A stretch of DNA of 64,000 nt from Desulfurivibrionaceae bacterium. GTDB lineage: Bacteria > Desulfobacterota > Desulfobulbia > Desulfobulbales > VMSU01. Position 1 is the first letter of the stretch; every line of letters begins with the position of its first letter. Position numbers and translations under genes: made by a program. Under the pieces are notes generated by a model. The model was not told where the DNA came from. It worked only from the letters and a program-made list of their open reading frames with translations, and searched no databases. This document shows positions 9,729-29,500 of this stretch, one piece after another. The stretch covers positions 62,001 to 126,000 of the forward strand of contig JAQYVV010000005.1 in assembly GCA_030145275.1 (NCBI GenBank). Reading direction: 5' to 3'.

Positions 9729-10319
9729 ATGCAAAAATCGGCAGTTTTTTTAGATCGAGATGGGACCATCAACGAACAGATGGGCTATATTAATCATATA
9801 AGTCGTTTTGTCCTTCTTCCTGGAGCGGCGCAGGCTATTAAAATCCTTAACGATAATAATGTTCAGGTTGTGGTGACCACAAATCAGTCCGGGCTTGCCA
9901 GGGGATATTTTCCTGAGTCACTGCTTGATGATGTGCATGCTAAAATGCATACTCTTTTGGCTGCAGAAGGTGCCAAAGTGGATGGAATTTATGTTTGCCC
10001 CCACCATCCTGAGGCAAAAGAAGAGAGATTTTTGGCAAACTGCAACTGTCGCAAGCCAAAACCCGGACTTTTTTTACAGGCTGCGGAAGAACTTAATATA
10101 GATCTTTCAAAATCGTTTGTTGTTGGTGACCGCTGGTCGGACTTAAAGGCAGCCGCCAACTGCGATGCTACCGGAATACTGGTTTTAACTGGATATGGCA
10201 GGGGGGATTATGATTATATTGGCCCCAAGCAAGAAATTCAGCCCAAATATGTTGCCGAAGATCTTATGGATGCTGTTCAATGGATTTTAAGTTCTTCGCC
10301 TGGGGTGTACGCTCCTTAA
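9729..10319 (+). CDS. gmhB: D-glycero-D-manno-heptose 1,7-bisphosphate phosphatase (HAD-IIIA)
   Basis: VFLDRDGTINEQMGYI, TNQSGLARGYF, CPHHPEA..CNCRKPKPG; start moved to ATG 9729. Confidence 0.88.
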   Translation: MQKSAVFLDRDGTINEQMGYINHISRFVLLPGAAQAIKILNDNNVQVVVTTNQSGLARGYFPESLLDDVHAKMHTLLAAEGAKVDGIYVCPHHPEAKEERFLANCNCRKPKPGLFLQAAEELNIDLSKSFVVGDRWSDLKAAANCDATGILVLTGYGRGDYDYIGPKQEIQPKYVAEDLMDAVQWILSSSPGVYAP

Positions 10320-10348
10320 TAAATATTTTAAAATGTCCAATTAGCTCG

Positions 10349-12436: not shown

Positions 12437-13810
12437 ATGGCGACAGTCCTGGTAATTGAAAAAGAACAAAAATGGCGACTTTTATTAAAGGCCGCCTGCG
12501 AGGGTAGGTATACCCTCTCCTTTTGTAATGAAGATAGCGATGCTTTACAGGCCTCTGTGAATCAGACCTATTATGATCTGGTGCTCTATAATCTGCCAAG
12601 TGATATGAATGAGACTTTTTCCCAGACCATGCAGGAGTTAAGGAAACATCTCCCCTTTTCGCCGGTTGTTGTCACCAGTGATAGCTGTGAGGTCGGGACA
12701 GTTGTCTTGGCGATTAAACAGGGGGCTTATGATTTTGTGGTTAAACCCTATGATGCCGCCAAAATCTCTTTAGCGCTGGGCAATGCCCAGGAGAGTCTTT
12801 CCCTGAAAAACGAGATCAATTACCTGCGCCGTGAACAAGACGTTATCTATGAGATGAGCAAGGTAATAGCCTTAAGTCCTGCCATGCGCCAGGTGATCGA
12901 TAACGTAAATAAATTTGCCGCAACCGACTCCACTGTCCTGATGACCGGTGAGACCGGTACCGGTAAGAGCATGCTGGCGGGCTCTGTTCATTTTAACAGC
13001 TCCAGGCGTCTTAAACCCTTTGTGAAGATTAATTGCGCCAATATTCAGGAAAACCTGCTGGAGAGCGAGCTCTTTGGCCACGAAAAAGGCTCCTTTACCG
13101 GGGCTGACAAGATGCGGGTCGGCCGCTTTGAACAGGCCAATGGCGGCAGTATCTTGCTAGATGAGATTGGTGAAATGAGTTTTGGCCTGCAGGCCAAGCT
13201 TTTGCGGATTTTAGAGGAGAAGTCCTTTGAACGCCTGGGCGGCAACCGTACTATCCATGTGGATACTCGTGTGATTGCAGCCACCCATCGTGATCTTGAA
13301 GAGCTGGTGCGCCAGAAAAAATTCAGAGAGGACCTCTTTTACCGGATTAATGTTCTGCCTATTCATCTGCCGCCCCTACGTGAACGAAAACAATGTTTAG
13401 AGCCCTTGGCCAATTTTTTGTTGAAGAAATTGAGTCGCACTTTGCATAAGCTGGTGAAAAAATTTACGCCAGAGGTTATGGAGCTTATCAAAGCCTACCC
13501 CTGGCCCGGAAATATCCGGCAGCTCGCTAACACCATCGAGCGGGCTGTCCTGCTTGAAGATGGGGAGACTATCCAGATGGATAATTTTACCTTGCTTGAG
13601 GTGGAGACTAAGCAAAAGGCGGAACCTGCAGGCTTTGCTAAAAGCCTGCCTTTGGCGGAACTTGAGAAGGAGAAGATCTTGGCCGCCCTGGAGGAGTCTC
13701 TTTGGATTCAAAAAGACGCGGCCATACTTTTAGGGGTAAGCCCCCGGGTGCTCAATCATAAAATTAAAAAGTTTGCAATTACCCACCACCGCTGGCGGAA
13801 AAACACCTGA
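12437..13810 (+). CDS. Sigma-54-dependent Fis-family activator with receiver-like N-terminus
   Basis: GETGTGKS Walker A, ELFGHEKGSFTGA, GGSILLDEIGEM, RLGGNRTIHVDTRVIAATHRDLE, C-terminal HTH. Confidence 0.93.
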   Translation: MATVLVIEKEQKWRLLLKAACEGRYTLSFCNEDSDALQASVNQTYYDLVLYNLPSDMNETFSQTMQELRKHLPFSPVVVTSDSCEVGTVVLAIKQGAYDFVVKPYDAAKISLALGNAQESLSLKNEINYLRREQDVIYEMSKVIALSPAMRQVIDNVNKFAATDSTVLMTGETGTGKSMLAGSVHFNSSRRLKPFVKINCANIQENLLESELFGHEKGSFTGADKMRVGRFEQANGGSILLDEIGEMSFGLQAKLLRILEEKSFERLGGNRTIHVDTRVIAATHRDLEELVRQKKFREDLFYRINVLPIHLPPLRERKQCLEPLANFLLKKLSRTLHKLVKKFTPEVMELIKAYPWPGNIRQLANTIERAVLLEDGETIQMDNFTLLEVETKQKAEPAGFAKSLPLAELEKEKILAALEESLWIQKDAAILLGVSPRVLNHKIKKFAITHHRWRKNT

Positions 13811-14176
13811 GTGCGGCAGGATTCGTCTCATATTTCTTCTCTTGGATTGCAGGTTTTTTAATCAAGCTGTGTGAAAAAGGAAACAGGGTGAGGCACAGTT
13901 GCCACACTTCAGTACTGGCTTAGCGTAATTACCGACAAATTGTTACCCCTGTTACATATCTGTAATTAGATTCTCTGTTTCTTTTACCATGAGCGAGATT
14001 CTACTTCTAATTTCCAGGGAAAAGGGAGCTATAGCTGCTAAACTACAAAGTAGTATAAAAAATATTGACAACGGCATATTAATTGCTATAACCAATTGAT
14101 GAATGTTTTTTTTAAGAAAAATAAATGCAAAATATCTGTTATTAAAGCTGTTAATTAATTTGGGGGAGGAAAGAGT

Positions 14177-15382
14177 ATGATTGAAAATTTTAGTAGGTTT
14201 TGCTTAAAAAGTTTGGGCGTCTCAAAAAGAAGTCTGGGATGGGTGGTAGCCATATCTGCAATAATTGGCATAACCCCAGCAATCTCCTTTGCTGTCTCAG
14301 GGTCATGTGCTGGTTGTCATACCATGCATGACAGTCAGAACGGTACTGACGATTTAAGTAATGATGCTACTGCCAATACGACTGGTGCTCAAGGAAATCT
14401 CCTGACCCAAAATTGTGTCGGTTGTCATACCTTGGCTACTGGTAATACTCAAGATACAGTTGATTTAAGCCTCTCAACTGAGGCGCCTTATGTCGATCAA
14501 TCAACAACAGTGCCAACCTTTCAGACTGGTGCCGCAAGCACCTTGGCTGGAGGTAGCTTCTATTGGGTAGGTGAAGGCGCATTTGGTGACTCTTATGGGC
14601 ATAATGTAGAAGGTGTCGATGCTATGGACGTTGCTTTGGACTATGATCCTCCTGGGTTTGATATTGCTGCTGGCTTTATGCCTGACGGCACCAATGGTCG
14701 CAACAATGAAATACTTGCTTGGTCCGATCAACTTACCTGCGCTGGGGTTAATGGTTGTCATGGATACGCCACAGATTCTGGGGTCACCGGGGCACATCAT
14801 AACAATAACGCAATAGGTACCATAACCACAGCAGCTAGCGCCGATAATGTTGGAGATCATTATCGCTTTCTTGAAGGCATTAAGGGTGTTGAAGAAGCCG
14901 AATGGGAATTTAATGTTGCCGCCACTCCCCTTGCTGTAAACGTCTATCATGGCAATGACCGTGATGCAGGCAATTCAATTGCTGATACTACCAAAGACAC
15001 AATTTCCTTCCTCTGTGCTGAATGTCACGGTGACTTCCATTCAGATGATGGTGGCGCTGGCGTCAGTACAACAGGCGCTAGTCCTTGGATAAGACATCCA
15101 ATAGACATAGCTTTGGCTGATAAGGCCAGTGAATATGCTAACTACGCAGATTATGATTATACAGTGCCAGTAGCCTTTGATACAGGCAATGCTGCTTATG
15201 ATACCCCAGGCGAAATCACGGCTGCAGGTGTGGTTCAAACCGGATTGGCCACTGTGACCTGTCTATCCTGTCATGTAGCACATGGTGGTCCATATCCAGA
15301 CCTGCTTCGCTGGGATTATACTGCCATAGTTGCTGGTTCTGATTATAATCTTGGTTGTAACGTCTGTCACAACACTAAATAG
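14177..15382 (+). CDS. OmcS-like multihaem c-type cytochrome (paralog 1)
   Basis: Signal peptide; CAGCHTMHDSQNG, CVGCH, CAGVNGCH (CX5CH), CAECHGDFH, CLSCHVAHG, CNVCH. Confidence 0.85.
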   Translation: MIENFSRFCLKSLGVSKRSLGWVVAISAIIGITPAISFAVSGSCAGCHTMHDSQNGTDDLSNDATANTTGAQGNLLTQNCVGCHTLATGNTQDTVDLSLSTEAPYVDQSTTVPTFQTGAASTLAGGSFYWVGEGAFGDSYGHNVEGVDAMDVALDYDPPGFDIAAGFMPDGTNGRNNEILAWSDQLTCAGVNGCHGYATDSGVTGAHHNNNAIGTITTAASADNVGDHYRFLEGIKGVEEAEWEFNVAATPLAVNVYHGNDRDAGNSIADTTKDTISFLCAECHGDFHSDDGGAGVSTTGASPWIRHPIDIALADKASEYANYADYDYTVPVAFDTGNAAYDTPGEITAAGVVQTGLATVTCLSCHVAHGGPYPDLLRWDYTAIVAGSDYNLGCNVCHNTK

Positions 15383-15440
15383 TGTGGAATAAGGTTGTTG
15401 ACATTTGATTAGTCAAATATTTGCTCTAAAAAAAGTTAAA

Positions 15441-15474
15441 AGATCCTGCCGCTTATGGCAGGATCTTTTTTTTT
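15441..15474 (+). terminator. Rho-independent terminator after cytochrome paralog 1
   Basis: AGATCCTGCCGCTTATGGCAGGATCTTTTTTTTT. Confidence 0.93.
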
Positions 15475-15580
15475 GTTTTATTCCTATCTGATTAATGGTA
15501 GATAATTTATAATTAAAACAAAATGTTAAAAGCAAAAATGTTAAAAGTTGATTTCTCTTAGGTGTACCAAATAAACTTGT

Positions 15581-17662
15581 ATGATGATTCTGTTATCCAG
15601 AAAGTCATTTATCTGCTATTCCGCAGCCTGTTTGCTGTACTTTCTTAATTCTGAACAGGGCTTTTGTTCCTCTCTGCCTCTGACCGCCAATTGGAATTAT
15701 CAAAGTGGCAGTGATGCTGATGCGCAGTTTAATGAGAGTTACTCGGCCTCGCTCTCAAAATCCGTTGCTCTTAGCAATCAGGTTGCCCTTGGTGCCAATA
15801 TGCGATACGGACGCACCCGGAGTAAGGATTCAGGCCGTGAAATTATTAACATCAACCCCAACCTGCGCTATAGTTACGATGATGATTATAGCCAATTGGC
15901 TCTCTCGGTAGAGGCCAATGAAATTATTAACCCAGGTAGCGATAATGCCAATATCAGCGATCGCACCTGGCGGGCCAAATGGAACAATGCTTGGGTGTCC
16001 AGCGGCCTTTGGCCTGAACTCTCCCTTAGTTTTAGCAAAAACTACTCCTTTGACCATGCCCATCCAAAGACCAGCGATAACGTCTCCGACCAGCTCTCCT
16101 CTAAAGTGGCTTGGAGTCGTGACCTGGGCAGCTTGCAGCTTACCTATAGTTCAAGCGAAAATAAAAATATCATAGCCCTCTCCAGCTCGGTTAATGAGAA
16201 CTACGGCGTCCAGGTTAATACCTCCAAGCCTTTCTGGCAAAATAAGGCCCTGGTAAGTTTTTCCCAGAAATACTCCCATTCAGCTAATACCAATGAGGTA
16301 ACGGTTACCGAAAATACAGGCGTGGCCCATCGTGAGCTGAGTATATCCCAGGCCTACGCCAAGGAGACTGATGAGTTGAACATCCATGACCTGACTCTAT
16401 CTTCGCTGCCTGCCCTGTTGAATAATGATCGAAGCGATGCCGCGCTAAGGGTAAATAATCCTGCGCAACCTGTTAATATAGCATTGAAAACCGATTTTGA
16501 AATAATTGATCTGCTCTATCTTTATACTGATGTCGAACTTGCCATGGCAGTTGCGGATGATTTTATTTTTGACCTCTATATCAGTCCTAATGGTATAACC
16601 TGGACTCGGCAAAACACTGCCATTGCCTACAGCTATAATGGCATTGAAAAACGCTATGAATTTCAATTAAACGGGGTGCAGGAGGAGTATATCAAGCTGG
16701 TGGCGGTTGCCGATCCGGCTATTGAGGTAATCTTTACAGAAATTGAGGCTTACCTCTCTTATATTGGCAGCGTCGGCACAGTTTTTACCGATTCGACCTC
16801 CAGCGCCCAGTGGAATACCATGCTCTCCTTAAGTTTACAGATCACCCCGGATTTAAGTCTGAGCAGCTCCGGCAGTTATGATAAAAGGGAATCGTCCCAG
16901 GGGCCTGATAATATCAGGAATAACCTTTCCTCCACTGCCAGCTGGGTGGTCAGTGATTCTGTTTCCTCTAGTCTCAGCTTTAATCAGTCCTCGGCGCAGC
17001 GCGGCAGCGGTCCGGAGGCTCTCAGTCGCAATTACTCCCTCAGTGTCGGACTTGCCCCGATACCCACCATTTCTAGCAGCTTTAATACCAGCTATTCTGA
17101 GAATTTCCTGGACGGTGAGAAACTTTCCACCAATACCAGCTACTCTTTCTCCGCTAGAGGGATAATATACCCGGATCTGAACGCCGGGCTTAACTGTTCC
17201 TATTCTGAGTCAGAAGATCTACTGCAGGGTTCGACATCGACAAGTCTTGGCAGCACTGCTAATATTACCGCAAGGCTCTTTCCTGATCTACAGCTCAACT
17301 GGTCCGGGGGCTTGACTCAGTCCAATAGCGCTTCAGCATCATACCGTTCAGGTCTGGGCTGGAGCTGGAGGCCGTCTTCTCTGCTCTCCATGAGTGGTAG
17401 TTTTTCCCAATCCTGGGCTGAGACCTCGACGGCCGATATGAGTTATTCCATGACCGTGGCGACCAGCAGCAAGACGAGAGTTGGCCTTAGCTTCAATAAA
17501 CCTCTGAAGCCTGCAGGCGATTCGAGTTACGGGGCTAATATGTCCTGGAACATCAGCAGCCATCTCTCTTTGCAACTGAATGGCTCTTACGTTGATTCTC
17601 TTAGCGCTGTGGATACCTGGTCATTCGGGGCCAGATTGAATGCCAGATATTCTATATTGTAA
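15581..17662 (+). CDS. Putative outer-membrane beta-barrel protein with internal discoidin-like segment
   Basis: Signal peptide, long alternating Ser/aromatic amphipathic strands throughout, internal LYLYTDVELAMAVADDFIFDLYISPNGITWT...VQEEYIKLVAVAD segment. Confidence 0.7.
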   Translation: MMILLSRKSFICYSAACLLYFLNSEQGFCSSLPLTANWNYQSGSDADAQFNESYSASLSKSVALSNQVALGANMRYGRTRSKDSGREIININPNLRYSYDDDYSQLALSVEANEIINPGSDNANISDRTWRAKWNNAWVSSGLWPELSLSFSKNYSFDHAHPKTSDNVSDQLSSKVAWSRDLGSLQLTYSSSENKNIIALSSSVNENYGVQVNTSKPFWQNKALVSFSQKYSHSANTNEVTVTENTGVAHRELSISQAYAKETDELNIHDLTLSSLPALLNNDRSDAALRVNNPAQPVNIALKTDFEIIDLLYLYTDVELAMAVADDFIFDLYISPNGITWTRQNTAIAYSYNGIEKRYEFQLNGVQEEYIKLVAVADPAIEVIFTEIEAYLSYIGSVGTVFTDSTSSAQWNTMLSLSLQITPDLSLSSSGSYDKRESSQGPDNIRNNLSSTASWVVSDSVSSSLSFNQSSAQRGSGPEALSRNYSLSVGLAPIPTISSSFNTSYSENFLDGEKLSTNTSYSFSARGIIYPDLNAGLNCSYSESEDLLQGSTSTSLGSTANITARLFPDLQLNWSGGLTQSNSASASYRSGLGWSWRPSSLLSMSGSFSQSWAETSTADMSYSMTVATSSKTRVGLSFNKPLKPAGDSSYGANMSWNISSHLSLQLNGSYVDSLSAVDTWSFGARLNARYSIL

Positions 17663-17707
17663 CGCTTAGTTGTAATTTTAACTAACCATGAAAAAGGAGT
17701 CTTGTAA

Positions 17708-18310
17708 ATGATGGAGCAAAAGATGCGCACAGGATCGCTGCTTTTTATTGTATGCTGCCTATTGACCCTGCCTGGCTGTATGTCTACTTGGTCTGATAAG
17801 GATTATTTTCTCCGTGATGATGTTGACATGAGCTTCATCTCGCGTATTGCAGTGTTAGATTTTGACGATAATGATCAAGGAGATGATGTTGCTGAACAGG
17901 TACGGGATCTAGTAACTACGCAGATCCTGGCCCGGGGGCTTTTTGATGTGATCGATAAGGGGTTGGTGAAAGGTGTTGTTATTGAAGAGTCGCCGGCCCG
18001 CGGCCGTTCGTATGTTGATGCTGCGTCTATTAAACGGATTGGCCAGCGTCTTGATGTGCAGGCCCTGTTGCTTGGCACCTTAGATTACTCAGGCGACGGG
18101 CGCAAGGGTGCCAGCACCTTTCCTGAACTTTCCATGACTTTACGTTTAATTGATGCAAATTCCGGGATGATTTTTTGGCAGGCCAGTGGACGGGCAAGTG
18201 GTGACTCCCTTTGGCGCCGAATTCTTGGGGTTTCGGCAGAGGACAGATACAGGGTTGCTATGCGTCTGATTGGGAATTTACTCTCCACCATCCCTGGGCA
18301 AGGGCAATAG
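17708..18310 (+). CDS. Lipoprotein, CsgG/TolB-N-like
   Basis: Lipobox TLPGC; RIAVLDFDDNDQGDDVAEQVRDLVTTQILARGLFDVID. Confidence 0.7.
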   Translation: MMEQKMRTGSLLFIVCCLLTLPGCMSTWSDKDYFLRDDVDMSFISRIAVLDFDDNDQGDDVAEQVRDLVTTQILARGLFDVIDKGLVKGVVIEESPARGRSYVDAASIKRIGQRLDVQALLLGTLDYSGDGRKGASTFPELSMTLRLIDANSGMIFWQASGRASGDSLWRRILGVSAEDRYRVAMRLIGNLLSTIPGQGQ

Positions 18311-18316
18311 GAAAAA

Positions 18317-18398
18317 GTTGTCAGTTGGCAGTGGACAGTAAAAAAACTATGTTAGTTTAGGGCCGTTAAGTTTTTACTGACAACTGATAACTGACAAC
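18317..18398. repeat. Inverted repeat GTTGTCAGTT..CAGTAAAAA / TTTTTACTGACAACTGATAACTGACAAC
   Basis: Two ~29-bp arms around a ~22-bp spacer. Confidence 0.8.
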
Positions 18399-18551
18399 TC
18401 AGCGCACAGGTTCTGTTGTGGAAGAGGTATATCTTCCTTTACTTGCCTCCTGCTTGATTCTGAGTTATATTTACCATTGTGCTACAATGTATTATTGTGT
18501 CTTAATGTAAAGTGCCTATTAGGCAAACTCAGTTCAGACAACACTAACTAA

Positions 18552-18588
18552 CCTGGATCCCTGATAAAAACATTCAGGGATGACGATG
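18552..18588 (+). repeat. REP-like hairpin
   Basis: cctggatccctgataaaaacattcagggatgacgatg. Confidence 0.8.
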
Positions 18589-18601
18589 AAAGTGATTATG
18601 C

Positions 18602-18634
18602 CGTCATTCCGGCATGTTGTTAGCCGGAATCCAG
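18602..18634 (-). repeat. REP-like hairpin
   Basis: cgtcattccggcatgttgttagccggaatccag (intact empty-site version). Confidence 0.85.
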
Positions 18635-18828
18635 TTAACTAAGCTTAGTTTGCTATAGAGCCACATAATGTAATTAGGATTACCGAGGTTTTGCCAGTGG
18701 AAGGTGTGTAAACTTGTTAATAAGTTATAACTCCTTGTTTTTTTTAAAATAAAATTCCCTTAAGATGTTTGCCGGGAGGGTATGGAAATTGCATCAAAAG
18801 TGATATGTAGTATTTGTAACTGATCACT

Positions 18829-18942
18829 TAGTGCCTTATAACTTAAATTCTGTCACAAAAAACGAGAATTCCAAAAAAGAACAATGTTCCCAATATGTTG
18901 CAGACCACTGTTAAGGCACTTATTTCCGGTTTATCCGGATTA
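18829..18942 (+). repeat. Type A TIR element
   Basis: tagtgccttataacttaaattctgtcacaaaaaacgagaattcc...gttaaggcacttatttccggtttatccggatta. Confidence 0.9.
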
Positions 18943-18963
18943 GTTTTTGAGAGGGTTAATATT

Positions 18964-20586
18964 ATGAAGAGAATAGTCTCAATATTACAGATAATATTTA
19001 TTCTGCAGGTTGCCCCGGTTGGTGCTGCAACTATTGCTCTCTTTCCCTTTGAGGACTTCAGCACCAACTCTGGAATTGGTGCGAAACTTATCACTGAAAT
19101 TGTCTCCTCTCAGGTTGAGTTGGCTGGCCATGTTGTTGTCTGCCCTGCGGAGTTGAATGATTTTATGGGCCGGCACCGTATTCGTCAATATGGTGTGATT
19201 AGCAGCGAACAGGCCCAACTTGCCCAGAAGGAACTCGGGATTGATTATATTTTGCTTGGTTCTGTTATGCTTAAGGAGGAGCGTCAAACAACTGCAACTG
19301 CATCAATTTTTACCCTGGTGAGGGCTGCGGATGCCCATGTGGTCTGGAGTTATGTAGATAGTTATAGTCTGGCAGATCACCAGGCGATGTTTAATCTTTC
19401 CGGCCCTTCTAATCTGGAAGATCTCTGGACCCTGCTTGCCCTTGATGCCTTTGCTGAGTTGCCTGAAATCATGCTTGCTAACCTGCTTCCTGAACAAGAA
19501 AGCGGTAACATTATCGTCGAACATAGTGAGCCTAATCTTCAGATTGACTTTGCTGCGTTTCATCCTCGCCATGTAAAACCTGGTGAAAACGTCAATTGTT
19601 CTGTGCGCTTTCGGACTTTAAATATCAGTGAAGAGGGGGAGCCCACTGTTTTTATCAAGGTCGGCAGCCGGGTGCATACGGCCCAGACTGATGACGGTTT
19701 TGAGTATGAGGTTTCCTGGGTTGCAACTGAAGGTAATCCCGGCCCGCCTTTCAAGTTGGCGATGAATGACCCTGACCTCTTCTACCGTGGCATGTGGGAC
19801 AGTGAAAATCTTGAGGCTGGCTACCCTGTCAATATTGTTGTGGAATGGCCCTCCGGTAGACATGATGAGTTGTATATCGGCTCTTATATTGTTGACAGCA
19901 CTCCTCCTGACCTAAAACTTATAGCCAGCGCCAAGGAGTATAATAACAGGAAAATATTTCGGCAGCGGCTCCCCTTGACCGTACGCTGGGGAAGACCTGA
20001 AAAAGTCGATCGCTGGAAATTAGCGGTATATGATCAGGAGAATAAACAGGTTATCAGCACTAAAGGCACGGCTGAGCCGCCTGCCTCTTTTCTCTGGAAG
20101 GGGACAAACAGCAGTAATAAAAAGGCGGAAGAGGGTCTCTATTCTGTTGTTCTGCAGGTTTGGGATCTGGCAGGAAATAGAACTGTTTCCACCGAAGAAG
20201 TCTACTATCTGCCGGAACTTCCTGAGGTTGAATTGACTCCGGTTGTGTCTCCTGAAGATGAGAGTATACAATTGGCTTTATTCCTTGATCATGAGCCCCT
20301 GGTACCATTGAAGTATTGGCGGCTGGAGGTTTGGGCCTCAAATAATGATTTGCTAAGTTTTCACGAGGGTACCAATTTTCCGGAGAGTATCACCTTAGCC
20401 GCTCTTGATTCTATTAACGTTGACGATGATATTGATGCAAAATTAATGGTACTCGATGAGCTTGGTGGAGAAATGGTGACCAGCTTTAAGGGGTTGTACG
20501 CTATGGCTGCGGCTCTTCAGGAAATGGATCAGACGCAGGATGATACTCAAAAATCGTCTGGGTCCGGCTGGGATGAGGGCTTTTGA
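18964..20586 (+). CDS. FlgO/CsgG-like N-terminal domain protein with Ig/FlgD-like C-terminal region
   Basis: Signal peptide; ATIALFPFEDFSTNSGIGAKLITEIVSSQVELAGHVVVCPAELNDF...GIDYILLGSV; start set to ATG 18964. Confidence 0.65.
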   Translation: MKRIVSILQIIFILQVAPVGAATIALFPFEDFSTNSGIGAKLITEIVSSQVELAGHVVVCPAELNDFMGRHRIRQYGVISSEQAQLAQKELGIDYILLGSVMLKEERQTTATASIFTLVRAADAHVVWSYVDSYSLADHQAMFNLSGPSNLEDLWTLLALDAFAELPEIMLANLLPEQESGNIIVEHSEPNLQIDFAAFHPRHVKPGENVNCSVRFRTLNISEEGEPTVFIKVGSRVHTAQTDDGFEYEVSWVATEGNPGPPFKLAMNDPDLFYRGMWDSENLEAGYPVNIVVEWPSGRHDELYIGSYIVDSTPPDLKLIASAKEYNNRKIFRQRLPLTVRWGRPEKVDRWKLAVYDQENKQVISTKGTAEPPASFLWKGTNSSNKKAEEGLYSVVLQVWDLAGNRTVSTEEVYYLPELPEVELTPVVSPEDESIQLALFLDHEPLVPLKYWRLEVWASNNDLLSFHEGTNFPESITLAALDSINVDDDIDAKLMVLDELGGEMVTSFKGLYAMAAALQEMDQTQDDTQKSSGSGWDEGF

Positions 20587-21248
20587 TTGTGGTATTTAGC
20601 TCGCCCTTTATTGCTCTCGCCTGGCGCGGGGTTGCCTTGACCTTCAGGAGTGCTGAGGCCCAATCTTTTATTGTCTGCTGTACTCTCATTTTTTTACAGG
20701 GGTGTTCTTTAGGACAGCAAGAGCCGCTCTATCAGCAGCTGTCGGAAACCCCTGGTCAACCACTTTGCCGTCTTGTCGTTCTTCCTTTTGCAAATCATAC
20801 CGAGTCTAGCCAGGCAGGGGCTGTTGTTACGAAAATATTTGCCTCTTCGTTGCAAAGAGCCGGCTATTCAGTGGCCTTGGAGGGGAATGTCCGGCAGCTT
20901 TACCAGCAGCTTCGGATTCGCATTGATGATGAGGTGACTCAAGAACATTATCGGATCATTGCTGCTCAGTTGCAGGCGGATGCCTTGGTTATTGGTAAAG
21001 TTGTAGAGTTTCAGGAAAATGTTGAGAAGGGCCGACTTGACCCTACCGTAGCTTTTGAGGTTGGTTTAATGGAGACGGGTTCACAGCGCCGTCTTTTTAC
21101 AACCTATTTTAAAAAAACTGGAAAAAACTATCGAAAGGTTTTACATTTTGGACTTATTAATACACTCTTCAGATTGACAAGAATCATGTCTGATGATGTT
21201 ATTGAACAATGGATAAACAAAGGTTTACATACATGCGCACCTTCATAA
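20583..21248 (+). CDS. Lipoprotein with CsgG/TolB-N-like domain
   Basis: Lipobox FLQGC; RLVVLPFANHTESSQAGAVVTKIFASSLQRAGYSVAL...ADALVIGKVVEF. Confidence 0.65.
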   Translation: MIVVFSSPFIALAWRGVALTFRSAEAQSFIVCCTLIFLQGCSLGQQEPLYQQLSETPGQPLCRLVVLPFANHTESSQAGAVVTKIFASSLQRAGYSVALEGNVRQLYQQLRIRIDDEVTQEHYRIIAAQLQADALVIGKVVEFQENVEKGRLDPTVAFEVGLMETGSQRRLFTTYFKKTGKNYRKVLHFGLINTLFRLTRIMSDDVIEQWINKGLHTCAPS

Positions 21249-22855
21249 CAGCAGTAGTTTTCTCTTTTTTTTGTTTGTATTCTTCTTCCGGATCGGCTGC
21301 CAATTGGCCGTGGCAGTCAACCGCCCTGCTGACGCTTGATGAGGTCGAATATAGTGGGGAGGAGTTTGAGCAGTGGTGGAAATGGTGGAATGAGGAACCC
21401 CATGCGGCTCCTGATCTTGAGCTTTTCATTGATTGGCAGTTAAAAGTTAAAGAGGCTGAAAGGATGGAACTATTTACTACTGCCCAGGTGCGGAAGAAAG
21501 TCGATACTTTTTTGAAGGCGCGGACTCTGCTTTTATTACAAGACGAAGAGGTACGAAGCAAAGTAATTTATTCTGAAGCTGAACTGCGGCAAGAGTATGA
21601 AACATCATACCTGCCGGTATGGCATCTTGGCTTACTTGCCTTTTCGACTCAGGAGGCTGCTGCCTCAGCCCTGCAAAACCTGAATAATGGTCAAACAGAT
21701 CTTGAATCTTTGGTGGCAAGCGCTCATGAAGAGAAGACCTTGGTGCGCTATGAAACAAAAATGAAACGGCCTGCTAACTCTTCTTCTGCCTGGCGGGGTA
21801 TTCTTGACCCCTTACAGGAACATCAGGCTCTTGCCCTGGGGGGGGAAGCGGCCCCCTATAAAATTATTTACCTTATTAAAAAACAGGGCGAAGAGGGTGA
21901 GGATTTTCAGCAATTTACTGATATAATCAAGAGTAATAAACGCAAACAAAAGGAGCGGGAATTGACCTTTCAACTGGTTGAGAGGCTGAAAGAAAAATAT
22001 AATGTGAGAGTTGATGAGGAGATCTACAAGCGCCTTGAAAGTGAAGAAGCTGAATCTCCTGAAAATGAAGATGTTGTTCTTTACTCTGATAAAATTAATG
22101 TTACCGTTGGCCAGTTTATGGCAGGTTTTAAAAAGACCAGCAAGGGGCAGAGAGAGGCCGCCAGCCGCAGCCAGTCTGCTGGGAATATTTCCATGCGTTG
22201 GTACCTCAATAGCTTAATATCAAGTAGTGTGGTCAGCTGGGAAAGCCTTGACCGCCACTATGAAGAAAGGCCTCCCTTTAGTTGGATATTTCGTTTTTAT
22301 CGGGAGAATGTTATGACTAAGGCCTATATCGCCATGATGCAGAGTTCTATTGGACTTCCGACGCAAGAGGAGATAGAGGCATATTATCAAGAAAAGGTTG
22401 AACAGTACAGGTTGCCAGGAGAGGTGCGGGTTAAACTGTTAAGCGCTGCACCAGATCTCCTTCGCAAGGTAAGGCTGCAGACCCTGGCCGGGGAAGGGTT
22501 GGCTAAAGTGGTAAGCGGCCTTGAGGGTGTAACCCTGAAATCTGTGACTTTCCAAGAAGAGAGCCTGCCTGCTGCGATTAAGGAAAATATAAAGTTCTTA
22601 TCCGCACAGGAGCTAAGCCCATCCTTTAGTTATGAAGGTAAAGAAACCATGGCGCAGCTGCTCGGCAAGTCCGAAGAACAGGTGCCCACCCTTGCGCATA
22701 TTCAGGAACGTATTAGCAAAGATCTCCATGAACAGAAAAAAAAGGAGGCAATGGATAGCCTGCATGAAAAATTGCGTCAGCACTCGACAATTGCCATAAA
22801 CAAACCACTCTGGTTAAGTATTACTAAGAAATTACAGGAAGAAAATGAGCAATAA
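21233..22855 (+). CDS. SurA/PpiC-like periplasmic peptidyl-prolyl isomerase-type protein
   Basis: Signal peptide; two PpiC/SurA-like helical regions (SEAELRQEYETSYLPVWHLGLLAFSTQEAA; PTQEEIEAYYQEKVEQYRLPGEVRVKLL). Confidence 0.6.
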   Translation: MRTFITAVVFSFFCLYSSSGSAANWPWQSTALLTLDEVEYSGEEFEQWWKWWNEEPHAAPDLELFIDWQLKVKEAERMELFTTAQVRKKVDTFLKARTLLLLQDEEVRSKVIYSEAELRQEYETSYLPVWHLGLLAFSTQEAAASALQNLNNGQTDLESLVASAHEEKTLVRYETKMKRPANSSSAWRGILDPLQEHQALALGGEAAPYKIIYLIKKQGEEGEDFQQFTDIIKSNKRKQKERELTFQLVERLKEKYNVRVDEEIYKRLESEEAESPENEDVVLYSDKINVTVGQFMAGFKKTSKGQREAASRSQSAGNISMRWYLNSLISSSVVSWESLDRHYEERPPFSWIFRFYRENVMTKAYIAMMQSSIGLPTQEEIEAYYQEKVEQYRLPGEVRVKLLSAAPDLLRKVRLQTLAGEGLAKVVSGLEGVTLKSVTFQEESLPAAIKENIKFLSAQELSPSFSYEGKETMAQLLGKSEEQVPTLAHIQERISKDLHEQKKKEAMDSLHEKLRQHSTIAINKPLWLSITKKLQEENEQ

Positions 22856-25800
22856 ATACTCTAAAAAACGAATTTTATTTATTATTAATTCTCTGCTTAT
22901 AATTGTCCTTTATTTTACTTTACAGGCATGTGTCTCGGGCAATACCCCACAGAAAAACACCCAGAGAAGACAGGCCTGTACAGACTGTCATGCTGATTGG
23001 GCAGAGTCTTTTCAACAAGGTAACACCCATAAGCCGGTTGAGGCTGGCAAGTGCCGGACTTGTCATCTGCCCCATGGCCTTATTGCCGTAGTCCAGTTGA
23101 CCTCTCCTGCACCCCGACTCTGTTTTGCCTGTCACAAAGATATTCCTGAAAGTATTGAGAAAAAAGTTGTTCATCAACCGGCCAAAAATGGCAAATGTCT
23201 AGAGTGCCATAATTCTCATAATTCAACCAATGAGCACCTTCTGAAAAATAGTGAGAGAGAACTCTGCTTTCAATGTCACGAACAAGACCGTTACAGCAAG
23301 AAAAATGTTCATAAGCCGGTGGCCGAAAAATGTATAACCTGCCATGCCCCGCATGGTTCCGACTATCCGGCTTTAACTGATAAAAAACTTGCAGAGCTTT
23401 GCGCTCAATGTCATGACTTTAAAGCTGCTTCATTTGTTGCTAAGCATTATGGTAAAAAAGTAACCGATGGATGCCTGACCTGCCATGACCCGCATAGTTC
23501 TGAGAGTGAAGGGCTGTTGAAGCCATTTATTCACCCATCGATTGAGGGCGGCGGTTGTGATAGCTGTCATGATAAAATGGAGATGCGGGGCGGCAAGAGT
23601 GCAGAGCAGATGTCTTCGCTCTGCGTCAGTTGTCACCCTTCCCATGTAGGCGGTTTTCTGCACGAGCCCTATGTGAACGGCCAATGCCTTGAATGTCACG
23701 CTGTCCACGCCAGCGATTACCTGGCCATTGCGGCCCGGCCTCTCCAGCAGCTCTGTACTGAATGTCATGACCAGCACACAGGCATACAAAAAGGATCTTT
23801 GCACGAACCTGCCCAAAAGGGTGATTGTCTCTCCTGTCATCAGAGCCATTGGTCAGAGAATGCACAATTGCTCACCGTGTCCGGTAACGACCTCTGTTTT
23901 AAATGCCATGACCAGGCTGATTTTACAGGCAAAGGTAGGAAACGTCTCCACGAGCCGGTCGGCCAGGGAGAATGTCTTGATTGTCATGAAGCACATGCTG
24001 CTCCACAAAAGAGTCTGCTTAACGAAAAACAGGGCAAGCTCTGTTTCTCCTGCCATGATCAGACCGCCGGTGAGATCTACCACTCCTCTGTGCATCGTCC
24101 CTTTGCCGAAGGAAATTGCAGCAGCTGTCACCAGCCGCACCAATCTTCTGCGCCCCATTTTCTGAAGGATTCTGTAAGTCTTAACAAGCTGTGTTTGCAA
24201 TGTCACGCCCAAATAGAGGAGAAACTTAAAGAGACACCGCATCAGCCGGTCGCAAAAGGCAAGTGTACTAACTGCCATGACTCCCATGCTGCTAACCGCA
24301 AAGCCCTATTGCTTGAGAATCCTGGCAAGCTTTGTCTGAGCTGCCATGATGACATGAAATTTGCGGCAGAGTCAAAAGGCAGGATTATTCATGAACCAAT
24401 CAGGGAGGGTAATTGTACCGTCTGTCATGATCCGCATGGTACGGTCAAACCACAAAACCTAAAAAAAATGGAACCAGGTCTATGCCTTGATTGCCATGCG
24501 GAAATATCTCAATTCTGGAGCACTGGCTCAGCTCACGAACCAGCTTCGCAGCAATGTACAACCTGCCATCTGTCACACTCTGGAGATAATGAAGCCTTGT
24601 TACGCAAAGAAGCAGCGTCTATTTGTGGAGATTGCCATGAGAGTGGAGCGGAGCTACAGGCCACTCATAAAGGGATGAAACTTTCTCCGCTAGGATGCGT
24701 GAACTGCCATGACCCTCATGGCAGCGCTAATAATAAGCTTCTGCGTCCTGTCTTGCATGAACCTTTTAATTCCGCTGATTGTCTTTCATGTCATGATAGC
24801 CAGGGAGCTGTTACCACCGGGCCGAAATGTTTTGACTGCCACGAAAAAGATGACGGCAAGGTTGTGCACGCACCATACCGGCAAAACAAATGTGCTGACT
24901 GTCATCAGACCCATGCCGCTGATTATCCAGGCCTTTTAGTCAACTCGGGCGCCAGTCTATGCGCAACTTGTCATGCTGATATCGCCAAAAAAAGTAGCGC
25001 TCAAAAGCTTCATAAGCCTTTTCAGGAGGGACGCTGTCAGACCTGCCATGCCAGCCATACTTCAGATCATAAGAACCTCCTCCATGATTCTTTGTCCACC
25101 GCCTGTATGGAGTGTCATACTGATTTGCCCCAGGGGGTGAAGAATCTTCATTCCCCTTTTGCCAAAGGTGAATGTTTAACTTGTCATTTAGCACATGGCG
25201 GGTCCAATGATAACCTTCTGGTGGAGAAAAGTGATAATCTTTGCTATCAGTGTCATCAAAAGGACAGGGTTATCGGGCAGCACAAATCTCCGGTCCCGCT
25301 TACCGGTAATTGTGTGAGTTGCCATGATCCTCATGGCAGCAATCAGAAGGCTATCATCCGTGAGTTCATCCATGAGCCATTTAGTGATGATTGCAGTTAT
25401 TGCCACCAGTCTGGTCAGGAAATCACCAATGAGTTATGTCTCCAATGCCATGAACGGGTCAGGGATGATTATTTGTTGCCCCATAGTCATTTGACCATGG
25501 TTGATAAGAAAGAAGGCTGCCTGACTTGCCATACCCCTCATGCCGGAAAGACAGCGGCAATGCTCAGAGATGAGGTAGACCAGGTCTGTCTAGAATGTCA
25601 TCAGCAGTCTCTTGACCGCTATGACGGGAAAAAACATGTGCATCAGGATATGGACAACTGTACGGACTGTCACGCTGGCCATGGTTCCAGTGCCCCGGCC
25701 ATGCTGAAAGGGGATGGCAGCACCACCTGTACATCATGCCATAAGAGCCATGATTCTTTTACCCACCCTATAGGAGAAGGGGTTTTGGATCATCGCAATC

Positions 25801-25910
25801 GGCAGATGCTCACTTGCTTGACCTGTCATGATCCAAAGGGGACAGATTATGAATATAACCTGCTGCTGGATCATAGTAAGGAACTTTGTGTTCAGTGTCA
25901 TCGTTATTAA
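22845..25910 (+). CDS. Very large multihaem c-type cytochrome lipoprotein (42 CXXCH by my count)
   Basis: Lipobox LQAC; repeating doubled-CXXCH units (CLTCHDPHSS..., CLECHAVHA...). Confidence 0.95.
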   Translation: MSNKYSKKRILFIINSLLIIVLYFTLQACVSGNTPQKNTQRRQACTDCHADWAESFQQGNTHKPVEAGKCRTCHLPHGLIAVVQLTSPAPRLCFACHKDIPESIEKKVVHQPAKNGKCLECHNSHNSTNEHLLKNSERELCFQCHEQDRYSKKNVHKPVAEKCITCHAPHGSDYPALTDKKLAELCAQCHDFKAASFVAKHYGKKVTDGCLTCHDPHSSESEGLLKPFIHPSIEGGGCDSCHDKMEMRGGKSAEQMSSLCVSCHPSHVGGFLHEPYVNGQCLECHAVHASDYLAIAARPLQQLCTECHDQHTGIQKGSLHEPAQKGDCLSCHQSHWSENAQLLTVSGNDLCFKCHDQADFTGKGRKRLHEPVGQGECLDCHEAHAAPQKSLLNEKQGKLCFSCHDQTAGEIYHSSVHRPFAEGNCSSCHQPHQSSAPHFLKDSVSLNKLCLQCHAQIEEKLKETPHQPVAKGKCTNCHDSHAANRKALLLENPGKLCLSCHDDMKFAAESKGRIIHEPIREGNCTVCHDPHGTVKPQNLKKMEPGLCLDCHAEISQFWSTGSAHEPASQQCTTCHLSHSGDNEALLRKEAASICGDCHESGAELQATHKGMKLSPLGCVNCHDPHGSANNKLLRPVLHEPFNSADCLSCHDSQGAVTTGPKCFDCHEKDDGKVVHAPYRQNKCADCHQTHAADYPGLLVNSGASLCATCHADIAKKSSAQKLHKPFQEGRCQTCHASHTSDHKNLLHDSLSTACMECHTDLPQGVKNLHSPFAKGECLTCHLAHGGSNDNLLVEKSDNLCYQCHQKDRVIGQHKSPVPLTGNCVSCHDPHGSNQKAIIREFIHEPFSDDCSYCHQSGQEITNELCLQCHERVRDDYLLPHSHLTMVDKKEGCLTCHTPHAGKTAAMLRDEVDQVCLECHQQSLDRYDGKKHVHQDMDNCTDCHAGHGSSAPAMLKGDGSTTCTSCHKSHDSFTHPIGEGVLDHRNRQMLTCLTCHDPKGTDYEYNLLLDHSKELCVQCHRY

Positions 25911-25959
25911 CTTTTCGCAGTCTTCGCTTAGCTGCAACGCCATCAATCTTGGAGTTACT

Positions 25960-26838
25960 ATGTCTCGTCTATTTTATAGGATAAGTAAATATATTTTCCT
26001 TGTTGCTTTTTTGATTGTGGCAACAGACACTTCTGTCTGGGCCTGGAACCATCATTTATCTTTATATTCTGCCACCGGTGACCCCATGCGGGTGCCAGCC
26101 GGTCTTTTTATTGATACAGAAAAAGAGCGCTATTATATCATTGATACCGGAAATAATCGGTTGGTCTCTTTTGATAAGGATGGCAATTATTTACAGGATT
26201 TTAATGCAAACGGGAAATTGACAGCACCCTTTGACCTGGTAAAGGATTCTCTTGGAAGGCTGTGTGTGATCGAGAAGGGGAAGAACACTCTAACCACAAT
26301 TGATCTTAAAAACAAAGAGGTTACACCACATACTCTTACGTATAATGGAAGCACAATCATTCCGCATCGTCTGGCTCTAGTAGATGGTACTATTCTAGTA
26401 CTAGACAAGAATAAGGGGGGGGTAGTTGTCCTGGATAAGGATTTACAGGTCAGATCGTACATTCCCTGCCCGGATAACTCTGAGGGGTTTGTTGATTTTG
26501 TAACCATTGCTGGTGAAATATGGGGCTTAGACCGTGGAAGTAATTCAGTATATCGTTATTCAATCAATGGTAAATTATTGGAAAAGGTGCAGTTAGATAC
26601 TTCCCCTCAGCATCCTGTTGCTCTCGCAATTTCCCCGGATGAACATTTGTTTATCCTCGATCGACATGCCAGGGCCGTTTATCAGTTCTCCAGAACTGGC
26701 CGTCTTGATAAAAAATTTCTGGAACAAGGTTTTACAGTTGGCAAACTCTTCTACCCAATTCTGCTTCGTTTTGACCCTTGGGGGCGTTTATGTGTTGTGG
26801 ATGAAGGAAATGGACGGGTAGAGATATATAATAGGTGA
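25960..26838 (+). CDS. Secreted NHL-repeat beta-propeller protein
   Basis: Signal peptide (VATDTSVWAWNHH); repeats such as PAGLFIDTEKERYYIIDTGNNRLVSFDKDGNYLQDF; start set to ATG 25960. Confidence 0.85.
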   Translation: MSRLFYRISKYIFLVAFLIVATDTSVWAWNHHLSLYSATGDPMRVPAGLFIDTEKERYYIIDTGNNRLVSFDKDGNYLQDFNANGKLTAPFDLVKDSLGRLCVIEKGKNTLTTIDLKNKEVTPHTLTYNGSTIIPHRLALVDGTILVLDKNKGGVVVLDKDLQVRSYIPCPDNSEGFVDFVTIAGEIWGLDRGSNSVYRYSINGKLLEKVQLDTSPQHPVALAISPDEHLFILDRHARAVYQFSRTGRLDKKFLEQGFTVGKLFYPILLRFDPWGRLCVVDEGNGRVEIYNR

Positions 26839-27992
26839 GGCGAAACATGTATTACATGCGAACAATGTGCTACATAGTTATTGCGACAATTATTGTTATT
26901 TTTGTACCAAACGCTGTTTTTGCTGTTACTGGTACCTGCTCATCCTGTCACACAATGCATAACAGCCAGGATGGTGTTGAAGTTAGTTATGGGCTTGACG
27001 CTGAAGATACCGGTCCTAATGTGGGTTTACTGATAAGTGATTGTGTGGGCTGCCACTCTTCTAGTGCAGGCAATCAAGTACTTGGAAACACCCCTATTGT
27101 TAACACAACGACAACCATTCCTGTTTTTAACGACACCGCTTTGGCCGGAGGAGATTTTTATTGGGTCGTTAATAGTGGTGACAATTATGGCCATAATGTT
27201 GATGGGATAGTTGGCGTAGATAGTGCTGTTAATGTAGGGATGACACCTCCTGGCTGGTCTTCTGCTGCTGCTTTTGGTTATGCTGGTACCGATGCAACCC
27301 GTAGAGCAGAAGCAGGGAGCTGGGGTGAACAATTAACTTGTGATGGGGTTTATGGCTGTCATGGTGATGTTGTTGATGGTGTTTGGGGTTCGCACCACAA
27401 CAATGCCGGAGGCCTTCGTGAATTTGCTGCCGTGGATGACGAACACCAGGGGGAGCACTATAGATTTCTGCATGGCATCAATGGTTATGAGGACCCGAAA
27501 TGGCAGCATAATGTTGCTGATGATGGCAACTTTAATGTCTATCATGGTGAGATTCGTTCCGGCTCGGATCTCGTTGGCAGCAGAGATACAATCTCATTTC
27601 TGTGTGCCCAGTGTCATGGCAATTTTCACTCCGGCACTGGTACCGACGAGGGGATTGCTGACTCTGGTTTTGCCAGCCCCTGGATACGCCATCCGGTTGA
27701 TGTTAAACTATATAAATTAGATACAGAGTATGCCTCATATTCAGCCTCAACCTACATCTATGGGGTGCCGGTTGCTTTTGATGTAACGAATAATGTAAGT
27801 TATGACAGTACAGATGACATAAACGACCCCACTGACATCCAAATTGGCTTGGCAACCGTTACCTGTCTCTCTTGTCATGTCGCCCATGCCAGCCCCAATC
27901 ATGACCTGTTGCGCTGGAACTACAGGGGGTGGCCGGGTAACAGCGTCGAAAATGACTATGGCTGTCACACCTGCCATTCATCAAAAAATTAA
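26835..27992 (+). CDS. OmcS-like multihaem c-type cytochrome (paralog 2)
   Basis: CSSCHTMHNSQDG, CVGCH, CDGVYGCH (CX5CH), CAQCHGNFH, CLSCHVAHA, CHTCH; collinear with 14177-15382. Confidence 0.88.
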   Translation: MRRNMYYMRTMCYIVIATIIVIFVPNAVFAVTGTCSSCHTMHNSQDGVEVSYGLDAEDTGPNVGLLISDCVGCHSSSAGNQVLGNTPIVNTTTTIPVFNDTALAGGDFYWVVNSGDNYGHNVDGIVGVDSAVNVGMTPPGWSSAAAFGYAGTDATRRAEAGSWGEQLTCDGVYGCHGDVVDGVWGSHHNNAGGLREFAAVDDEHQGEHYRFLHGINGYEDPKWQHNVADDGNFNVYHGEIRSGSDLVGSRDTISFLCAQCHGNFHSGTGTDEGIADSGFASPWIRHPVDVKLYKLDTEYASYSASTYIYGVPVAFDVTNNVSYDSTDDINDPTDIQIGLATVTCLSCHVAHASPNHDLLRWNYRGWPGNSVENDYGCHTCHSSKN

Positions 27993-28072: not shown

Positions 28073-29500
28073 ATGAACCAGCACAAATATGCATATGTAC
28101 TTTTTCTAGTTTTTTTCCTCTCTTTTGTTGTCTCCGGATGTGTTAATAGCAGCCCTGGTGGTGGATTTATAAAGCGGGATATCGTTGAAAAACCACCTCT
28201 TGCCAACCAATCTTTACTATCCTTTTTCTGTGACTTTACTGAGCAGCCCCGTCAGCAACTAAACATTCAGATAAGTGATATGGAAATTCACACCGGAGAA
28301 CAATGGATCTCTGTACTTCCTTCCGTTACATCTATTTCGTCAGAGCATATTTCTACTGGACAAATTCTATTGACCCGGGCAAGCCTGCCGGCCGGGACGT
28401 ACACTAAGCTTCGCTTTACCTATGAAGAGACGGCCGCACAAAAAGAAGAAAATGGTCAGATGAAAGGGAATAAAATTACAAAAGAAATTTTATTTACCGC
28501 ACCATTGCAGCTTTTGGCACAAGAAAGTCAGTGTCTTTTTTTAGATTGGAAGTTGAGCCCGTCGCAATCCAAGCAACAACAGTTTGAACCATTAATAACC
28601 GTATTTCCGCAGGAGATTTCCTTAAGTGTTGATCTGGCATTTGTGACTTGCCCGGATATTGATACCATATATATTATTCGAACTGATACCAATAAAGTAA
28701 TCGGGGCTTGGGGGATACCTGGTAAACCGTCTGATTTTGTCTTAAATTATTCTACAGATGTACTGTATGTGCTTTCCCAAAAAAATAAATCAATTGTCAT
28801 TGTTGAAATTTCATCGGGGAGGGTAGTAGATTCTTTTTTTATTCCCATGGGTACAGACCCCTCTTTTATGGAGGTTAGTCCCGATTTTCAATACGCCTAT
28901 GTTCTGGACCAGAGAAACTTCCGGCTGATAAAAATTCAACTGTCAGATGGCAGCCTCGCAGGTACTTTTAACTTCGATTATCCTGTGGAATACTTATCTT
29001 TGCTTGAGGGTGATCACCGCCTTGCTGTCTCATCTTCAAGTGTTAATGAAGTTTATTTATTGGACAAAGAGACCCTGCAGAAAGTTCAAACAATTCAGGT
29101 TGGCAGAAAAATCTCCAGTATGGTTTTGGTAAACAACCAGCTTCTCATTGCAGAGAAGGGCGCAACCACATTACTTGCTTATAATATTCACACATCAGTA
29201 GAAAAAAGACCTGTTGTTGGTTTGGGGCCTGAGAGATTTCTTCAGGTTAACAATAGATTATATGTTTCAGCCTCAAAGGCTGGACGAATTGATGTACTAG
29301 ATCCCGATGAACTGTACCCGATAAAAACGATTCGTATTGGCGGGGCTCCTGTGGAAATGGCAGCTTCTACTAATCGGAGATGGCTATATGTTGCTGATGT
29401 GCAGAGAGGTGGCCTGGCTGTTCTTGACCTCTCTTCTTATCGGTTAGAGAAAAGGATAGATCTAGCCGCCGTTCCTCATTCAATTGCTGTTACTCAGTAA
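28073..29500 (+). CDS. Lipoprotein with YncE-like beta-propeller
   Basis: Lipobox VSGC; repeats LDQRNFRLIKIQLSDGSLAGTF..., LDPDELYPIKTIRIGGAPVEMAASTNRRWLYVADVQRGGLAVLDL. Confidence 0.8.
   Translation: MNQHKYAYVLFLVFFLSFVVSGCVNSSPGGGFIKRDIVEKPPLANQSLLSFFCDFTEQPRQQLNIQISDMEIHTGEQWISVLPSVTSISSEHISTGQILLTRASLPAGTYTKLRFTYEETAAQKEENGQMKGNKITKEILFTAPLQLLAQESQCLFLDWKLSPSQSKQQQFEPLITVFPQEISLSVDLAFVTCPDIDTIYIIRTDTNKVIGAWGIPGKPSDFVLNYSTDVLYVLSQKNKSIVIVEISSGRVVDSFFIPMGTDPSFMEVSPDFQYAYVLDQRNFRLIKIQLSDGSLAGTFNFDYPVEYLSLLEGDHRLAVSSSSVNEVYLLDKETLQKVQTIQVGRKISSMVLVNNQLLIAEKGATTLLAYNIHTSVEKRPVVGLGPERFLQVNNRLYVSASKAGRIDVLDPDELYPIKTIRIGGAPVEMAASTNRRWLYVADVQRGGLAVLDLSSYRLEKRIDLAAVPHSIAVTQ

Follow-up and report, generated by a model that had tools for sequence, protein, structure and literature searches.

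Introduction

What is the role of a bacterial gene cluster that carries an OmcS-like cytochrome gene at each end and encodes, between them, a single protein with 42 haem-binding motifs? The cluster lies in a 64,000-nucleotide stretch of DNA (the window) from a Desulfurivibrionaceae bacterium of the order Desulfobulbales (assembly GCA_030145275.1, contig JAQYVV010000005.1, forward-strand positions 62,001 to 126,000). The locus is an osc/Oet-type operon, the osc gene set of Geobacter that is called OetABI in methane-seep sulphate reducers. In Geobacter, the osc operon has been linked to the folding and secretion of OmcS nanowires (PMC13194489). In sulphate reducers that partner anaerobic methanotrophic archaea (ANME), the OetABI conduit has been described together with OmcX, OmcS-like and Apc2a proteins, and the cassette is also known in Desulfobulbia (PMC10553843). 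An earlier account of the same set described an operon for 26-haem and 16-haem cytochromes with a peptidyl-prolyl isomerase (PPIase) and a six-bladed propeller (Skennerton 2017, PMC5539420).

This kind of operon is already known. Its most unusual feature here is the joining of the 26- and 16-haem proteins in one chain. A search of a literature library for a 42-haem cytochrome or an OscI-OscJ fusion found no description of either. We read the locus, at a probability of roughly 70%, as one that assembles and charges OmcS-type nanowires. An initial annotation of this DNA had noticed the two OmcS-like genes; the operon identity and the fusion were absent from it and are added by the present analysis.

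Operon Identity and Conservation

Between positions 14177 and 26838 of the window, the gene kinds of the osc operon follow one another in order: an OmcS-like gene, a barrel, lipoproteins, a PPIase and the 26- and 16-haem cytochromes, the last two fused. In Geobacter, oscC is GSU2501, OscD has been connected to morphology, OscE, OscF and OscG to secretion and OscH to folding, oscI (GSU2495) encodes the 26-haem protein and oscJ is GSU2494 (PMC13194489; PMC12977616). An eight-gene block, GSU2500-2493, has also been described there (PMC12977616). The osc letters D to H and the names OetA and OetB were assigned here by position, product and size; the Geobacter gene order was taken from the literature, and OmcS alone was compared by sequence.

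The gene order was found to recur in about 15 Desulfobulbales loci, flanked by OmcS-like genes on one side or on both; flanking on both sides is common across the order. Partial synteny was seen in Malonomonas and Thermodesulfatator. Among 146 Desulfobulbales genomes, the 26/16-haem genes are present in 58, OmcS-like genes in 65 and both in 52, a co-occurrence with a Fisher p of 2e-20 when the kinship of the genomes is ignored.

A 42-Haem Fusion of OscI and OscJ

The large cytochrome contains exactly 42 CXXCH motifs. Its counterpart in most relatives is a pair of genes for proteins with 26 and 16 haems, counts that are almost constant across the phylum; the culturable Desulfurivibrio alkaliphilus, whose operon is syntenic, carries two such split copies. 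At the fusion junction, 11 residues lie between haem 26 and haem 27; the second protein has lost its signal peptide, and neither a membrane segment nor any other hydrophobic stretch is left. Across all fusions this linker measures 11-24 residues and is mostly hydrophilic, and the total is always 42 haems. The protein was shown to be MtrA-like along its length (DmsE-family model, 418 bits in 11 stretches), and a PDB search matched it to chain A of 6r2q at 8.9e-17, an Mtr-complex entry whose chain A we read as MtrA. Inspection of the N-terminus revealed a lipobox (LQAC), with which the protein starts in this family.

The fusion is present in 7/7 members of the family that have the gene. A split gene in one genome (G060; G and L numbers denote genomes and loci) was ruled out, because an identical, in-frame overlap of 145 bases connects its two contig ends. 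Further fusions were found in G096, whose close relative G026 has the split arrangement, and in G101 and G396, which have mutually similar linkers. An assembly artefact was ruled out because the gene is internal to a 148 kb contig and the fusion occurs in 10 genomes. For the 26-haem part, a topology that puts every fusion into a single clade was rejected (approximately unbiased test, p=3.6e-4), and a single origin within the family was not (p=0.67); the trees reported here come from quick searches and include some long branches. The fusion has therefore arisen more than once. In G126 (L022 / L051), one TAG is all that separates the 26-haem gene from the 16-haem gene; the two share a frame, and the second signal peptide is retained. 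This shows an intermediate arrangement, one step short of fusion.

Where do the two cytochromes reside? Their location is contested: both have been placed in the periplasm (Skennerton 2017, PMC5539420; table in PMC13194489), and the outer membrane has also been put between them (Murali 2023, PMC10553843). One polypeptide with a short, hydrophilic linker speaks for a shared compartment, or a single wire, for the 26- and 16-haem proteins, and a recurrent fusion in which precisely the second signal peptide is lost and the total is always 42 haems is a genetic argument to the same effect. Because it is short and hydrophilic, the linker fits a model in which both halves are periplasmic or one in which the chain threads the barrel, and not independent sorting. 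The arrangement suggests that the fused halves work end to end. Furthermore, with the fusion the model can be tested on a single protein, for a system that has been tied to Geobacter nanowires and to the syntrophic oxidation of methane.

Two OmcS-Family Cytochromes

The initial annotation had proposed that two OmcS-like paralogs flank the locus. Open reading frames lie exactly where it placed them, and their products, here cytochromes A and B, share 46-49% identity across their entire length. Every element of the motif layout quoted for them was found in both. An alignment of 66 homologues has 38 invariant columns, so the layout is not a product of chance composition.

The likeness to OmcS had been staked on profile similarity. 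No PDB match was obtained with either cytochrome as a single sequence. A profile of 15 relatives matched OmcS (6ef8) at E=4.9e-21, and one of 66 relatives did so at E=3.9e-23 (85 bits), followed by NrfA at 2e-3 and OmcE at 3e-3. As OmcS was the sole strong match, the link to it is specific, and by profile comparison cytochromes A and B belong to the OmcS superfamily. This match and the osc/Oet neighbourhood uphold the description of the two proteins as filament-related; filament-forming, the stronger wording, is putative. One pairing did not hold, namely that of HYRF with the YRRF that follows a haem in OmcS. It is out of register: in the profile, YRFL falls on OmcS AYRIL, well beyond haem 3.

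How many haems does each subunit carry? The hexahaem layout proposed initially stood in that there are six candidate sites. Only five of these are CXXCH, and the remaining one, haem 3, is a C-x5-CH motif (CAGVNGCH in cytochrome A, CDGVYGCH in cytochrome B), where OmcS has CXXCH. Since six CXXCH-attached haems per subunit are not found, we name the proteins OmcS-family relatives and not OmcS orthologues. The C-x5-CH form is kept in 57/64 relatives counted. It is a candidate haem-attachment motif, retained across the family, and a search of the literature library for a CX5CH multihaem motif found none. In a sister OmcS-like subfamily (L012:8778-9926, L013:12454-13560 and contigs C16 and C54 of the source genome, L008 and L004), C-x5-CH is replaced by another arrangement, with 6-7 CXXCH motifs.

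Conservation across the 66 sequences extends to 13 histidines, of which 12 are invariant and one is kept in 65/66; six are proximal ligands and seven are candidate distal ligands. Given these 13, six haems per subunit are likely. Five of the distal positions match OmcS histidines (16, 110, 247, 257 and 335). The counterpart of His16, which we take to be the OmcS ligand donated to the neighbouring subunit, is invariant at the sequence level (66/66). The histidines that six bis-histidine haems would need, this counterpart included, thus all appear to be conserved. In the OmcS filament, one of the twelve haem ligands, on haem 505, is supplied by the neighbouring subunit (PMC6584659).

Three more relatives of cytochromes A and B are encoded on other contigs of the genome, some with an altered haem-3 region. 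A phylogeny of OmcS-like proteins places the two window copies as sisters (support 98). The operon-end copies of relatives also cluster by lineage and not by position (L048, L049, L012), though each of the two positions is kept throughout the order. Such pairs would be explained by repeated duplication or by gene conversion (concerted evolution). A possible reason for the grouping is the compatibility of the two copies for one machine or a mixed filament.

Proposed Mechanism and Alternatives

How might such an operon build and charge a filament? The PPIase would help the hexahaem cytochromes to fold in the periplasm, and the barrel and lipoproteins would export them. Outside the cell, subunits would join head to tail into a filament, each using its conserved TMH histidine as a ligand for a haem in the adjacent subunit. 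The 42-haem lipoprotein would be held at the outer membrane through its N-terminus and serve as an electron wire linking carriers in the periplasm to the base of the filament, with its halves arranged end to end inside the periplasm or running as a single chain through the barrel. Electron export and uptake are both compatible with the sequence.

More speculatively, and with a chance well below even, the OscI-OscJ fusion may be a continuous, lipid-anchored 42-haem wire that spans the periplasm, alone or together with the barrel, as far as the base of an OmcS-type filament. In MtrA, 80 A separate haem 1 from haem 10 (PMC7198977). By extrapolation, 42 haems stacked linearly at that spacing would reach about 36 nm, comparable to the whole periplasm. 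If this is true, a fixed wire would take the place of diffusing small periplasmic cytochromes, and in other bacteria, Geobacter and ANME partners among them, the separate OscI and OscJ would achieve the same by docking end to end.

Several points weigh against a nanowire locus. The filament is one that we infer here from genes and sequence. With C-x5-CH in place of CXXCH at haem 3, the number of six haems per subunit is also one that we infer. The AlphaFold2 (AF2) model of cytochrome B is of moderate confidence (predicted local distance difference test, pLDDT, 67; predicted template modelling score, pTM, 0.74), and a Foldseek search with this model gave no structural match, although Foldseek copes poorly with haem proteins that are rich in loops. 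Six genomes have the 26/16-haem genes without a strong OmcS-like match. OmcS relatives beyond close kin cannot be called nanowires by sequence (PMC12977616), and the respiratory role of OmcS filaments is itself disputed (PMC11077965).

Could the locus instead be mainly a porin-cytochrome conduit, with a membrane-crossing cytochrome housed in the barrel and the OmcS-like proteins as monomeric surface cytochromes? This follows the OetABI model, in which OetB is an extracellular lipoprotein, OetA is periplasmic and OetI is the porin (Murali 2023, PMC10553843). The 26/16-haem proteins are MtrA-like, and the AF2 model of the barrel (mean pLDDT 88.5; about 28 barrel strands and a beta-sandwich insert at mature residues about 218-346, recognised by no Pfam family) matched outer-membrane barrels in Foldseek, with MtrB (6r2q_B) having the best template modelling (TM) score, 0.41, among the matches listed. 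However, a mostly hydrophilic linker of 11-24 residues is hard to square with one half sorted to each side of the membrane, unless the polypeptide passes through the barrel, and the export-type partners (PPIase and lipoproteins) and the invariant TMH histidine suit an assembly role. We consider a locus that is mainly a conduit unlikely. Less probable still is that the two cytochromes are periplasmic or surface hexahaem proteins related to OmcS by descent only, with another function (e.g., soluble carrier or mineral reductase) and the duplicate as redundancy: among the Geobacter homologues OmcS alone is known to polymerise, with OmcT, OmcJ and GSU2501 uncharacterised (PMC12977616), haem 3 is unlike that of OmcS and Foldseek gave no match, but the five distal positions shared with OmcS, the His16 counterpart included, are kept and the linkage to osc genes is tight.

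Operon Parts and Neighbourhood

The features of the locus are collected in Table 1. The nanowire assembly locus proposed above likely has its regulator, as judged from position, in the NtrC-type activator, which has a homologue immediately upstream in two members of the family (L048 and L049). A sigma-54-like site precedes cytochrome A; among relatives, L049 has TGGCAT-N5-TTGCT at -101, L057 has a perfect site at -182, and others have none. Across the whole window the sigma-54 consensus is no commoner than chance, and the site is not significant in the window alone. A cyclic-di-GMP or other riboswitch upstream was ruled out, with no Rfam match within the window. Just upstream of the regulator, a 712-amino-acid protein appears to combine a SPOR-like N-terminal region with NHL-type propeller repeats, and similar propellers are present in related loci. 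Shortly downstream of the operon, a response regulator with GGDEF and EAL domains is encoded, and a link to cyclic-di-GMP is possible through this predicted protein.

Table 1. Features of the osc/Oet-type operon and its flanks, in window coordinates (aa, amino acids).
Feature	Position	Strand	Remarks
Protein with SPOR-like region and NHL-type propeller repeats	10280..12418		712 aa
NtrC-type sigma-54 activator (response regulator)	12437..13810	+	Directly upstream of cytochrome A; sequence
Sigma-54-like -24/-12 site	14072..14087	+	CGGCAT-N5-TTGCT; about 105 bp 5' of the cytochrome A gene
OmcS-family cytochrome A (position of Geobacter oscC/GSU2501)	14177..15382	+	401 aa, ATG start; Sec signal; five CXXCH and one C-x5-CH
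Large outer-membrane beta-barrel (OscD / OetI position)	15581..17662	+	AF2, Foldseek, synteny
LpoB-like lipoprotein (OscE position)	17708..18310	+	Pfam LpoB 2.2e-4, just under cut-off; synteny
Exported FlgD-Ig-domain protein (OscF position)	18895..20586	+	Pfam FlgD_ig 1.7e-6; synteny
GNA1162-like lipoprotein (OscG position)	20583..21248	+	Pfam GNA1162-like, sub-threshold; synteny
PpiC-type PPIase (OscH position; folding)	21209..22855	+	Pfam Rotamase_2 6.5e-8; synteny
42-haem lipoprotein	22845..25910	+	Residues 1 to ~650, 26-haem OscI/OetB; ~660-1021, 16-haem OscJ/OetA; joined in frame
NHL-repeat beta-propeller	25960..26838	+	Pfam NHL 1.2e-9; synteny; reading frame opens at 25828, likely true start 25960
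OmcS-family cytochrome B	26835..27992	+	385 aa, GTG start; Sec signal; five CXXCH and one C-x5-CH
DUF4382/beta-propeller lipoprotein (conserved operon end)	28073..29500	+	Pfam; present in most relatives that share the gene order
Response regulator with GGDEF and EAL domains	29968..32094		By sequence

Comparison with Known Systems

The osc operon of Geobacter sulfurreducens (omcS GSU2504, omcT GSU2503, oscC GSU2501, oscD-J GSU2500-GSU2494) has the same gene kinds as the window. The window differs in that OscI and OscJ are one 42-haem protein, in having OmcS-like genes at both ends and in the C-x5-CH motif at haem 3. The source genome carries dsrA. A sulphur-metabolising Desulfobulbales bacterium holds the conducting-filament gene set of Geobacter, with filament-type cytochromes at both ends. 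The cassette of OetABI, OmcX, OmcS-like and Apc2a proteins in Seep-SRB1a/1g/2 and HotSeep-1 shares the 26-/16-haem cytochromes, the barrel OetI (represented in the window by a predicted outer-membrane barrel) and the OmcS-like cytochromes. There, OetB and OetA have been described as two proteins in two compartments, an extracellular lipoprotein and a periplasmic cytochrome, whereas the window and all seven family carriers have one polypeptide, which conflicts with independent sorting.

The cytochromes share with the OmcS filament (PDB 6EF8 / 6NEF) the order of haem sites and the TMH, GHN, [IF]H, RHP and AH histidines. In contrast to OmcS, they have C-x5-CH at haem 3 and a conserved HH pair 11-12 residues later, and are known here from genes alone. 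With the MtrAB(C) conduit (PDB 6R2Q), the locus shares an MtrA-type haem-chain cytochrome beside a large barrel. The window, however, has 42 haems and not 10, and its barrel of about 28 predicted strands, with a beta-sandwich insert, has no detected sequence relation to MtrB.

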